Below are positions 34,401-43,400 of a stretch of DNA of 64,000 nucleotides, one piece after another. A model generated the notes under the pieces. It worked only from the letters and a program-made list of their open reading frames with translations, searched no databases and had not been told where the DNA came from. Origin of the DNA: Diphasiastrum complanatum (taxonomy: Eukaryota; Streptophyta; Lycopodiopsida; Lycopodiales; Lycopodiaceae); assembly GCA_029204225.1 (NCBI GenBank), contig CM055102.1, positions 29,378,969 to 29,442,968 of the forward strand, given 5' to 3'. The position numbers were made by a program, and so were the translations under genes. Position 1 is the stretch's first letter, and each line of letters begins with the position of its first letter.

Positions 34401-37400
34401 GTGGGAGGTAGGTGGTACAAGGTTTAATCTTGACTTTTATTTACATATAGTTTTTCATTTTCACACCCAAGTGCAATCTTCCTAGGGAAAAGGCCAAAGT
34501 ATATACCCATCTTGTTTTGCATAATAGTCATTATTTCATTGGCACTTTTTTTCTAGAGGTTGCCCATCCTCAATCATGGTCATTGGCACTTTTTTGTAGA
34601 GGTTGCCCATCCTCAATCATGGTGGAAAGGGTCAATAGGGTGATCAGACCCTTGGCCTTGTCCTGTTCTTTATAGACTCCTCTGAGCTTTCATTATAGAC
34701 TTAGAAATAAGCCTTCTTTATAGACTCTTCTGAGCCTTCATTATAGACTTTGCCATAAGCCTTCTTGGATAACAGTCTTGAGCTTTGAAAGCTTCTTGTT
34801 CCAATTCTTGTCCTTCAGGCACTTTCAAGAGTAACCTGCACACACCTTCAAAGTAAGGTCAGTCCTGAAGCCCAAAAGGCTTCTTATTCTTGTTCTGGTT
34901 CTTCAGGTACTTTCGTGAGTACCTGCACATACCTTCAAAGAAAGATCAGTCCTTAAGCCTGTTGGAATATCAATCCACACTCTAGAGAGAACTATCAAAC
35001 AGGGCGGATAGCTCAGTGGTAGAGCATCAAATCTGTATGGGTTCGAATCCTAGTCTGTCCATCCATATTATGATTTATGGATTTCTAACATGGTATCAGA
35101 GCCAAGTTAGACCTAACAGGTCATGGTGTCAAAGCCATGGTTAGGTGGCCCAAGTTGTGGGGCAGAGGTGACAGCTAGGACCCCAACCAAGTGTGGCTTG
35201 AGGGGGGTTGTTGGAATATCAATCCACACTCTAGGAGAGAACTATGAAACAGGGCGGATAGCTCAGTGGTAGAGCATCCCATCCAGTATGAGGGAGGTCT
35301 TGGGTTCGAATCCTAGTCTGTCCATCCATATTATGATTTATGGATTTCTAACATGGCATCAGAGCCAAGTTAGACCTAACAGTTCATGGTGTCAAAAGCC
35401 ATGGTTAGGTGGCCCAAGTTGTGGGGCAAGTGACAACTAGGACCCCAACCAAGTGTGGCTTGAGGGGGGGTGTTGGAATATCAATCCACACTCTAGAAAG
35501 AACTATCAAACAGGGCGGATAGCTCAGTGGTAGAGCATCTCATCCGGTATGAGGGAGGTCATGGGTTCGAATCCTAGTCTGTCCATCCATATTATGATTT
35601 ATGGATTTCTAACATGGTATCAGATCTGCAGCAAGCTCGTTTGTTGGCGCCCTACCAGAAGAGGAGCTTCTCTGCTTTTTGTTGTGAAATTTCAGCATCT
35701 TGCTGATCTTTTCAAGTGGAGTTTGGATCAGCTTTTTTGTCTCTTTTCAGGGTGGAGGAGGGCGGCCATCAGAGATCTTGGATCAGCAATTTTTGGCACC
35801 CAAAAATCAGAGAAAGACATCTTGTGCTCCTATTTTCAGCTCTTTGTTTGCTACAAATGTTTGAGTAGATTTGGTTGTAAAAAGGCTCTCTTTCCTATCT
35901 ACTACAAGCTGAAATTTTGTTGGAGGTAATGGCTAAAGAATCAAAAGCTATCGGTTCTTTGTTTAGTGAAGATCGATTGGATGGCACAAACTACTCCCTG
36001 TGGAGTTACATGATGAAGAATCTTCTCATAGCGAAAGGGCTGTGGGATTTGGTCATCGCACATGGCAGGGCCAATTAGGAGTTAAACCCGACTATTATAG
36101 GACTCATTTCTTGGAGATGGATGACGTGGGGACCCCTATTCTACCACGCTATTTAGATTCTGGATTATCAACTACTTGTTTACGCTTTTCATTATATGTC
36201 AGCCTTGAAGGTACTTGTCTTTCCCTTGATGTCTTTGGCACCTCCTACACCTCGTGGATCATCATCATCAACATTATCTTCTACATCTTCGGAAGAACAA
36301 AAGAAGTGGGATAGAAGGGATGCACAAGCACATTCTATGGTTGCTCTTGTTGTGAAAAGATCTATCTTACCTCATATTAGGTCTTGTAAGACATCTAAAA
36401 GTGTGTGGGATACACTTTATACTATGTATAGAGTCAAAAATCTAGCAAGAGTGGTGTATCTTAGAAATCAGCTTTCTTTGTTGAAGATGCAAGAAAGGGA
36501 TCAAGTGACCAATCACTTGACGAAGATCAAGGATCTTCGTGAGGAGCTTCTCAATATTGATGAGATAATTGAGGATGCTCAATTTGTTTCCATTACTCTC
36601 AACCCATTACCTTCATCTTATCTTCCATTTGTTTCATCTTTGAGTATCCCTCTTAGGGGACAACAACTCTCCTTTGATGAACTTGTTGGGCTGCTTCTTC
36701 AAGAGGAGCAAACGAGGCAAAATTTTGCGGGTGACACTCAACAAGATCAAGCTTTCTTCACGAAAGGCAAGGGCAAAGGCAAGTCAAAAGGAAAGGGGAA
36801 GCCTCCTTCCAAGGACGAGCAAAAGCCCGTTGGAGGTCAAAATGTCAACACTCAAAAGAAGAAAGGAAAGTGCCATTATTGCAAGAAGTATGGGCACTCA
36901 TCAAGGATTGTAAGAAGAAGCTTACGAAAGAGGAGAGTAAAGGAATTGATACTAGTCCTTCACTTGCTACTTTGGAGTAAGAGCTTGAAGGTAGTGGTGA
37001 TCTCTTCAACCAAGACTATGCTTTTGTGTCTAATACTGCTTCTACTAGTACTTCTACATCTATGAGGAATTCAGGTTCTGTTTTGCAAGTTGCTGATTTT
37101 CAGCCCATTGAATGGGTGATTGATAGTGGTGCTACTCGTCATATGACTTCTCGCAAAGAAGCATTCAATAAATTAGTGAAAGTGCAAAATGGAAGTAAGG
37201 TACAATGTGCGGATGATGCATCTTATTCTATTCATGGAATTGAAATTGTAGCCATCATTTTGCCTAATGGTGAAGAAAAGTACATTAAGAATGTGCTTTA
37301 TGTTCCGAGAATCAAGAAGAATCTTCTTTCGGTTTCAACTATGTTGAAGCAAGGACTAGTTGTTGAGTTCAAAGAAGATAAGTGTCTTGTCAAGGATCCT

Positions 37401-40400: not shown

Positions 40401-43400
40401 AGTGTGGCTTGAGGGGGGGTGTTGGAATATCAATCCACACTCTAGAGAGAACTATCAAACAGGGTGGATAGCTCAGTGGTAGAGCATCCCATCCGGTATG
40501 AGGGAGGTCCTGGGTTCGAATCCTAGTCTGTCCATCCATATTATGATTTATGGATTTCTAACATGGTATCAGAGCCAAGTTAGACCTAACAGTTCATGGT
40601 GTCAAAAGCCATGGTTAGGTGGCCCAAGTTGTGGGGCAGGTGACAACTAGGACCCCAACCAAGTGTGGCTTGAGGGGGGGTGTTGGAATATCAATGCACA
40701 CTCTAGAGAGAACTATCAAACAGGGCGGATAGCTCAGTGGTAGAGCATCTCATCCGGTATGAGGGAGGTCCTGGGTTCAAATCCTAGTCTGTCCATCCAT
40801 ATTATGATTTATGGATCTCTAACAAAGCCTAGAAGGCTTCTTAGTTCTACAAGTATCAATGCCTTGTTACTCAAATCATTGAAGCAATAAATTCATACAA
40901 TATCCAAAAAAAATAATGGTCATTGGTAGTTTTATGTCATTAAAGTCTATATGGAGTTTGAAGCTGGAAAGTCTTTATTACTTTGGGGCAATTTGTCTCT
41001 ACAAATTACACCATCATTTGCAACAAATGGCTCAAGAGAAGAAGAACGCTCTACCATATCAACATTCCAATGCAAATTTGTACTTGTAGAAAGACAATGA
41101 TCAAACTTTGCATTCCTTTGCTCTTCTACCTTCAAAGAGGATGAAGTAGAGAGGAGAAAGCATGATGATGAATCCTTTATTCGGTATATCTATAAAAGTG
41201 TTTCCCAAGCACTTTTAGAGGTCTTGCAAAATCTCAAATGATATAAGATAGATCTTGTTACCGATAAAATCTTGATCATCACGTCGATGCCAAACCTCAG
41301 CTTGCAATTCCATGAAGAATAGTTGGTGCCATCCAACATATCTTTGCCCGAACAAGTACGAATTGCTCCCAAATCTCTTGCCATAAGAACTAGCCAAGAA
41401 GATAAATTTTTTCAAACCCTAAATGTGCCCTAAAAGACACAAAAACCAGCAAGTATCAAATTTGAAAAATCAGCATCGGAATGTGTCAAAACCACACATT
41501 AGATGGATGCAGGAACTCGCCCTCCTACAGGCCTTGTGTGCTGAAAATTTCAGCCTGAAATTGCATTACAAACTCAAAAAACCAGCAAGCAAAGAATTAG
41601 GTTAGCCTCCAACAAAGCTTTTTCCGGAACCCTTCTGTCCTGCCAAAAAGTGTGAACAACACACACACGGATAGGGCTGTTGCAAACACCCTACAAATGG
41701 TAATATGCTATCCAATTTTCAGCCTCGGAATGTGATCGGATCATCACAAAAAATTAGCGCCTTCTTCCACATCTGGAAACAAGCAAAAAGAAGCGGATTT
41801 TTACTTTGTAAAATCAGCAAGGGTGCTGATTTTTCAGCCAAATCAGAAGATAAAAATTGCTTGTAGATGGGCGGCCTCCTGCAAAGGAGCAAATCTGAAA
41901 AATAGGGCAGCAGCGGACCAACAGACGTAGGATAAACCTACACGGATGTGGGCAACCTAAAAGCAGCCCCCAAGAAGATAATTAATGGTGCCTTCCTGCA
42001 ACCTGAAAAATCAGCAAACAACCAACTGATTTTTGGTCGCCCAAAATCCTATTATCTTCTTTGATGTGTGGCGCCCTCTTGCAAAATGGAAAAGAGTCAA
42101 AATTGAACGGATCTTCACTCCAAAAAATCAGCGAAGGTGCTGAATTTTTGTGATCCCTAAGTGAAGACGATTGCTTTTGGTAGGGCGCCCTAAATCAAGC
42201 ATAGAAGATCCATGGCTCTGATACCATGTTAGAAATCATAATATATGGATGGACAGACTAGGATTCAAACCCAGGACCTCCCTCATACCGAAATCCGAAT
42301 GGGATGCTCTACCACTGAGCTATCCGCCCTGTTTGATAGTTCTCTCCAGAGTGTGGATTGATATTCCAACGTGTGTAATGAAATACTCACTTCTTGATCT
42401 TTAACTGTGCCTGTTAAATGAAACAGTTCATTAGGCAAAAAAGAAGCAGTATTAAAAGAACATTCACACTCACAATCTTTACTTTTACCTTCAGGGATTT
42501 CTATCATCTGTGCCGCAGGATTCTTTCTCTCTGGACAAAATTTCATCATATGTCCAGGCTTATTACAAATGAAACAGAGATTTTCTTTCTTAGCCTTCAT
42601 CCGGGACATAGATTTTTTCAACTTTTTCTTCGGTTTCTGGGGTTCCGACCCCATTTGATCCAATTCGTCAAAACATTTTGTTGCTCGGTTTGGATCGCAC
42701 GTCTTTACCTTCTTGGATTTCAAAGTGGTTGGAATTTGTTGAAGTTTCTTCCTGGACGCCAGCACCTCGTATGCTTTTTCTATCCGAAAAGCATCCTCGA
42801 GGCTTTGAAGCATATTCCTCCTACATTCGACGAATAGGTTTCAGGCTGAAACCCGAGGTTCAAAGAAGACATTTGGTTCAAAAGAACTTCCATCTGCTGA
42901 TCTCTCATATTATTTCGATGGTTCATGTCATTGAGTGCCATACTCAACTGCTGGCAAATCTGCATATATGATGGTGTAGCCGGATTTGGCATAGCCCGAC
43001 CATCAATTTACAGGTCTGCTTGCTGGACAGGTCAAGAGGAGTACTAAACAGGCTGTAAAATTTCCCAGTACAATCCCCTTGTGGATTGAGAGCAATCCAT
43101 CCCCCAAAAATCACCAAAAAAGGCTATTTTTTTGGCTTTTTTCTGCCTTCTACAAGCTCAGTTCATGGAATTCTTGGCTCTAACTTCAGGGACATCAACT
43201 TTTGCCAAGCTCTATAGGCGTTTTACAGGATCCTACTGTGCAATGTTATGAAAAAACTAGCAAAAATGATGATTTTTGACTATTTTCCAGTTTTTTCTTC
43301 ACCATAAAGTGGAAATTCATGATATGCAACTCTTTCTCACCCACATGCAACTCAATTTATAGGATTATAGCCATCCTAATGATTTGATCTTGCTGGATTT

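Follow-up and report, generated by a model that had tools for sequence, protein, structure and literature searches.

The 64,000-nucleotide stretch of Diphasiastrum complanatum DNA analysed here (contig CM055102.1, forward-strand positions 29,378,969 to 29,442,968; hereafter the window, whose own numbering is used throughout) carries at 34960-40824 an array built from the long terminal repeats (LTRs) and short internal parts of a terminal-repeat retrotransposon in miniature (TRIM), each LTR containing a tRNA-like unit. Within this array lie the body of a Copia retrotransposon, Copia-A, and its 531-bp LTR, which is unrelated to the TRIM LTR. The whole array is bracketed by the 5-bp duplication AAGCC and is a single composite insertion. 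Farther along, a seventh TRIM LTR on the minus strand is attached to internal sequence of Copia-B, another Copia family. An earlier sequence-only reading had recognised the array as a TRIM-like family, which stands; the composite TRIM/Copia nature and the AAGCC duplication had escaped it. The features are as follows (PBS, primer-binding site; bit scores are those of the Rfam tRNA model).

34955..34959, no strand: left target site duplication, AAGCC, read from the sequence
34960..35090, plus strand: LTR1 of the TRIM, 131 bp, with a shortened unit
35002..35061, plus strand: tRNA-like unit of LTR1, 60 nt (37.2 bits)
35091..35208, plus strand: miniature internal part 1, with PBS TGGTATCAGAGC and a terminal G-rich purine tract
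35209..35353, plus strand: LTR2
35252..35324, plus strand: tRNA-like unit of LTR2 (46.5 bits; also called by ARAGORN)
35354..35470, plus strand: miniature internal part 2, whose PBS has one mismatch
35471..35614, plus strand: LTR3, to which the Copia body is attached within the PBS
35513..35585, plus strand: tRNA-like unit of LTR3 (43.2 bits)
35615..39537, plus strand: Copia-A internal region with leader, gag (PF14223), integrase core (PF00665) and reverse transcriptase (PF07727)
39538..40068, plus strand: Copia-A's own 3' LTR, 531 bp
40069..40159, plus strand: PBS and shortened miniature internal part 3, its tract lost, attached to the end of the Copia-A LTR
40160..40301, plus strand: LTR4, without its first two bases
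40200..40272, plus strand: tRNA-like unit of LTR4 (41.3 bits)
40302..40419, plus strand: miniature internal part 4
40420..40563, plus strand: LTR5
40462..40534, plus strand: tRNA-like unit of LTR5 (47.7 bits)
40564..40680, plus strand: miniature internal part 5
40681..40824, plus strand: LTR6, the right end of the composite
40723..40795, plus strand: tRNA-like unit of LTR6 (49.9 bits)
40825..40829, no strand: right target site duplication, AAGCC
41040..42226, minus strand: leader of Copia-B and the beginning of its gag, with an approximate left boundary; gag assigned by eye and from short matches to Copia-A
42227..42370, minus strand: seventh TRIM LTR, attached at the PBS to the Copia-B internal region; ends of this composite not located
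42250..42329, minus strand: tRNA-like unit of the seventh LTR (47.5 bits)

The seven TRIM LTRs (six on the plus strand, one on the minus strand) measure 131-145 bp and all end in CTAACA, just as first described. The Rfam tRNA model RF00005 accepts the units of all seven above its gathering score (37.2-49.9 bits, with E-values of 3e-4 to 1e-7 in a search space of 64 kb), which is the kind of covariance-model check that had been proposed, and ARAGORN calls a tRNA in six of them. The unit is thus tRNA-like, as had been claimed, and with its discriminator base it is 73 nt long rather than 72 nt, the exceptions being the shortened unit of LTR1 (60 nt) and that of the minus-strand LTR (80 nt). In three units viewed against the Rfam model the D and T arms, which contain boxes A and B, are intact, in agreement with the earlier description of the boxes, and the anticodon arm is a poor fit. 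A PBS (TGGTATCAGAGC) follows LTR1, LTR4 and LTR5 perfectly and LTR2 with one mismatch (TGGCATCAGAGC); behind LTR3 the PBS breaks off at TGGTATCAG and the Copia body starts in place of a miniature unit. We take the primer to be initiator Met tRNA. The miniature internal parts span about 116-118 bp and end, ahead of the 3' LTR, in a G-rich purine tract (GAGGGGGG), except for part 3, whose end and tract are gone, and the open reading frame list of the window holds no frame of at least 150 aa inside the miniature units.

To place this element in its genome, we searched the 1.74 Gb assembly (5,176 contigs) with the LTR and with the internal part, which returned 1,319 and 1,109 first-look candidates, respectively; 40 of each were scored. 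The scored samples are the best-scoring copies and are biased toward those resembling the window, and copy number rests on the first-look candidates. As all 40 scored LTR candidates (of 1,319) match at high identity, the window pattern is far beyond chance. The TRIM is a 404-bp element with 144-bp LTRs, an internal part of about 118 bp, a PBS, a purine tract and 5-bp target duplications; its length is exactly 404 bp in 18 of 20 simple copies (range 397-406). Among 34 distinct loci, 22 are intact (two or more whole LTRs, none partial), and these have perfect 5-bp duplications in 16 cases, one mismatch in two, two mismatches in three and five mismatches in one, with a mean LTR-LTR divergence of 3.6%.

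The tRNA-like unit belongs to the family and is not a late addition to the window array. First, each of 30 loci fetched by the internal part alone (30 of the 40 scored; two of them come from the window, and another two overlap one another) adjoins a unit-bearing LTR, two of these LTRs being cut at position 107 or 113, past both boxes. Second, a pattern for LTRs devoid of the unit matched at three places genome-wide, all three with deletion remnants of the unit. Third, ARAGORN calls a tRNA in 59 of 63 whole LTRs sampled, and in these 63 box A is present with at most one mismatch in all, box B with at most two mismatches in 61, and a CAA stretch ahead of the unit is retained in 58. The situation in which most copies lack the unit, named beforehand as damaging to the sequence-only reading, is not what the sampled copies show, and the TRIM-type family with a tRNA-like LTR unit extends to the copies sampled genome-wide; that all of them have the unit and that 16 of 22 intact loci have perfect duplications also bears out its suggestion that the unit was spread by reverse transcription. 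Exact LTR and unit patterns had no match among viral contigs, with records of the same or a very near genome possibly excluded. Two loci 0.2 Mb apart, L020 (C8:29.44 Mb) and L021 (C8:29.23 Mb), are TRIM copies that share an insert of about 63 bp, which interrupts the 3' LTR at LTR position 37.

TRIMs with tRNA-like LTRs were named Helenus by Kojima 2024, who described them from fungi, animals and one plant family, Helenus-1_SMo of Selaginella moellendorffii (PMC10886601). A literature search on Helenus retrotransposons brought up, besides this paper, a meeting report that cites it and a paper on a butterfly. The earlier reader's remark of knowing no described plant LTR family with such a unit is thus superseded, and the possibility that the family is already catalogued is borne out for the kind: the TRIM is a new family of an already described kind. 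It shares with Helenus (TRIMp3) a length below 1,000 bp, two LTRs and non-coding content, an LTR unit with box A TRGCY..YGG and box B GGTTC, a PBS after the 5' LTR and a purine tract before the 3' LTR, and the 5-bp duplications of plant and fungal members, which here are perfect at 16 of 22 intact loci and carry one mismatch at two. Compared by description only, Helenus-1_SMo differs in having a 120-bp LTR and an 85-bp internal part, as opposed to 144 and about 118 bp here, and its host belongs to another lycophyte order. Cassandra, in the available text of Kalendar 2020 (PMC7215508), likewise combines a TRIM structure with a Pol III-type LTR unit (Pol III, RNA polymerase III) and LTR-internal tandem arrays, but its unit derives from 5S rRNA. 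Membership in Cassandra was rejected: a scan of the window with Rfam at gathering scores returned tRNA only, with no match to a 5S rRNA-like unit.

The Copia-A body in the window consists of several open pieces and is shorter than its relatives, and a Copia reverse transcriptase fragment resembles one near-identical named protein, D. complanatum O6H91_09G (94% identity, 43% of the query). No Copia-B 3' end was found in the window. Directly upstream of Copia-A, 26 of 30 loci (fetched from 40 scored, best-scoring copies) have Copia's own LTR, two have the tRNA-like LTR (the window and L056) and two have neither; upstream of Copia-B, a Copia-type LTR of about 530 bp is found in 18 of 20 and the tRNA-like LTR in none of 20 further copies (the best-scoring of 39 others scored). 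Because both Copia families usually follow a Copia-type LTR, the tRNA-like LTR is not their normal LTR, and we rejected the idea that it belongs to an autonomous Copia. Rare Copia elements bounded on both sides by the tRNA-like LTR may exist, L092, L095-L101 and the minus-strand join of the window being places not read through both ends. The TRIM and Copia internal regions have only a stretch of 11-14 nt in common, at the PBS, and their LTRs have no homology. Two further observations concern the Copia-A LTR: window positions 32122-32261 match its start at 84% in reverse orientation, a further remnant of the Copia group, and a long CT microsatellite inside it (39910-39978) has its complement 5.8 kb off (45730-45798), forming inverted repeats.

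We then searched the genome with patterns for joins at the PBS, allowing up to three mismatches for the join of TRIM LTR to Copia-A. This join gave 65 matches, from which 19 Copia-native ends were removed to leave 46; 15 of the 46 sit in two C5 clusters and are apparently local duplicates. The clusters are half-megabase regions (L100, 37.5-38.0 Mb; L101, 65.2-65.7 Mb), two copies read from them each have 122 bp of Copia leader and agree at 99.6% of 1,414 aligned bases, and local or segmental amplification is probably their origin. The TRIM LTR is joined to Copia-B at 13 places (19 matches, 6 dropped). In the opposite arrangement, a Copia-type LTR precedes the TRIM internal part at 39 places, as judged on the 12 letters ahead of the PBS; by eye, 19 of these have Copia-A-type ends, 14 have Copia-B-type ends and six have others. 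Reversed-pattern controls for the joins gave no matches. The six other ends (TGTTTTCCTTCA, TGGATTCC, TGTATTCC) perhaps mark more Copia helper families.

Both joins occur together at 22 places (11 and 8 paired by position, three by reading), with either element nested in the other and two or more Copia families involved. For Copia-A, pairing by position gave six TRIMs inside Copia-A (one, on C19, with one of the other LTR ends) and five Copia-A inside a TRIM; for Copia-B it gave seven TRIMs inside Copia-B and one Copia-B inside a TRIM. Reading added two cases of Copia-A in a TRIM, the window and C6:19.78 Mb, and one of a TRIM in Copia-A, C4:39.25 Mb. We examined 17 composite candidates, including L069 and two in the window. 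The eight read at both ends all have perfect 5-bp duplications: AAGCC in the window, TAAGT at C6:19.78, GATAC at C2:31.0, TATCT at C4:45.79, ATATA at C6:13.72, AAGCA at C4:39.25, GACTG at C4:71.31 and ATGGT at C17:36.3; C17 and C4:45.79 nonetheless have an altered first or second LTR base, and C6:19.78 has a trimmed last LTR. Moreover, the outer LTRs are of the same kind in all eight (TRIM in six, Copia in two). Those of the C2:31.0 Mb composite are identical (0/144 differing), those of the C6:13.7 composite differ at 4/142 positions, and the two outer Copia pairs differ at 4/331 and 6/324 over the parts compared. The LTR joins in the composites read all fall within the LTR-end/PBS stretch, and no join at the purine-tract/LTR border was seen in them, the pattern searches having covered PBS joins only. 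L069 shows an additional switch between gag and TRIM at a 2-nt overlap.

The composites suggest that Copia is the helper of the TRIM. We consider it likely that this 404-bp non-coding element of the Helenus kind has a predicted Pol III start at its LTR unit and that its RNA is packaged and reverse-transcribed in the particles of at least two Copia families. With slightly less assurance, we favour a TRIM that parasitises the particles of specific Copia families, in which hops of reverse transcriptase from PBS to PBS build composites whose inner and outer LTRs are unrelated and the tRNA primer site serves as the recombination bridge. Pol III would start at or near the CAA just ahead of the unit and read through the entire element, and TRIM RNA and Copia RNA would enter one particle. 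Minus-strand DNA copied from one RNA would reach the PBS and sometimes continue on the other RNA, whose PBS is identical; it would then copy the U5-R of this second RNA, jump as usual to the 3' R of that RNA and copy the RNA fully back to its PBS. Plus-strand strong-stop DNA of the first element would cap the end, leaving outer LTRs of one kind with a complete guest unit inside, and the same switch between two TRIM RNAs would yield pure TRIM arrays. A single rule of PBS switching would thus give both nestings, complete inner guest units, outer LTRs of the same kind and a single duplication.

Several observations weigh against this scenario. Only eight of the composite candidates were read at both ends, and join types other than those at the PBS were not counted. 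Many joins are unpaired by position (20 of the 46, not counting the C5 clusters, with a few of the 46 being paired later by reading; 5 of 13; and 20 of 39), and some composites are probably copies of one event (three share a 239-bp spacing; two lie on C4 and have the same variant in common). The outer LTRs of the C4:45.8 Mb composite differ at 8/142 positions and are not especially alike, and LTR1 and LTR6 of the window differ at 8/131 and are not its closest pair, so that the outer-LTR signature is missing from the window taken alone; this divergence could stem from later conversion or from the insertion being old. Finally, the PBS overlap of about 15 bp could also serve recombination after integration. 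This is the main rival, in which a resident element recombined via the PBS with circular one-LTR DNA of Copia or TRIM or with an element nearby; this route would keep the outer LTRs and duplication of the resident too, would place the TRIM/Copia LTR joins in the same common stretch of about 15 nt and would suit the outer LTRs of the window. We nevertheless regard it as unlikely: a homology of 11-14 nt is very short for homologous recombination, the joins are numerous and come in both nestings, the identical outer LTRs at C2:31.0 Mb fit one reverse transcription (a fast later event being possible) and the second join of L069 has just 2 nt.

PBS switching during reverse transcription can be set beside known composites. 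The Angela, Squiq and Opie elements, in the available text of Sabot and Schulman 2007 (PMC1950507), also form composites of three LTRs that have 5-bp duplications and outer LTRs that match, ascribed there to jumps between co-packaged RNAs, but their partners are of the same or a closely related family and the proposed jump is at R, whereas here unrelated LTRs are joined at the PBS. Tandem TRIM arrays of the L3I2 type and longer are common in plants, with 5-bp duplications in maize examples, according to the accessible parts of Gao 2016 (PMC4717578); each of those consists of one TRIM family, whereas the array here incorporates foreign Copia units whose LTRs are unrelated. We found no published report of PBS-joined TRIM/Copia composites in a literature search made largely without subscription journals.

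The unit is a predicted Pol III promoter of the TRIM. A CAA sits at -6 to -4 relative to it, and in Arabidopsis tRNA genes a CAA within 10 nt upstream serves as start site, as given in the available text of PMC11700998, where only 36-45% of angiosperm tRNA genes have such a CAA there. The stretch TTTT occurs in 2 of 20 simple copies, compared with 33 of 40 flanks of equal length that were not matched for composition. On the other side of the balance, a simulated single element contains TTTT in 49% (first-order) or 76% (composition shuffles) of cases, so that its absence from a parent element is unremarkable; boxes A and B are no more conserved than the remaining LTR (63 copies, permutation p 0.72); and the predicted folds of the four units tested, out of seven, are no more stable than those of shuffles (z 0.0 to -0.83). 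If the Pol III reading holds, R begins at the unit and U3 is the first 42 bp or so, and read-through into the flank would be harmless, as R alone would be needed for strand transfer.

In an alternative view, a tRNA or SINE that entered the LTR long ago sits there as an inert passenger, and RNA polymerase II (Pol II) transcribes the element from a short U3. This view gains from the lack of extra conservation of the boxes among recent copies and of extra fold stability in the four units tested. It seems improbable to us, because the sampled copies have the unit with nearly intact boxes, the CAA start motif is retained and TTTT stops are rare, and a Pol II promoter would hardly fit into the 42 bp ahead of the unit. 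That the units work, or worked until recently, as real tRNA genes adding to the host supply is far less probable still, even if ARAGORN and Rfam both call them as tRNA: we rejected it on account of the poor anticodon arm and of anticodons and isotypes that differ between nearly identical copies (Thr GGT/AGT/TGT, Pro CGG/GGG, Ser CGA), and the copies are flanked by an LTR and duplication structure. A tRNA or SINE that inserted late, in the window array only, can be dismissed almost entirely, the sampled copies genome-wide carrying the unit.

Elsewhere in the window, an open frame of 1,592 aa on the plus strand (23935-28713) encodes a Gypsy-type polyprotein with matches to gag, protease, reverse transcriptase, RNase H, integrase zinc-binding domain and chromodomain.

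What is new here is not the kind of TRIM but the composites around it, which make the helper testable. For most Pol III-type TRIMs the helper is not known: the autonomous partners of Cassandra are called unknown in the available text of Kalendar 2020 (PMC7215508), and Gao 2016, in its accessible parts, reports no related longer coding element found for 278 of 289 TRIM subfamilies (PMC4717578). Kojima infers TRIM partners from the PBS or from internal similarity and states Pol III transcription of Helenus to be unvalidated (PMC10886601), whereas the helper proposed here comes from composites and not from internal similarity. For the lycophytes, plant Helenus gains a second lineage, and our results suggest that the TRIM units inflate any tRNA gene count made automatically in this genome. 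The composites further hint at how tandem arrays of TRIMs could arise. PBS-joined composites would provide a sequence-only test of which element packages a TRIM, even where the LTRs are unrelated; if the favoured reading of PBS-to-PBS hops is true, such composites preserve in the genome the identity of a Pol III-type TRIM's helper, an approach that could extend to Cassandra.

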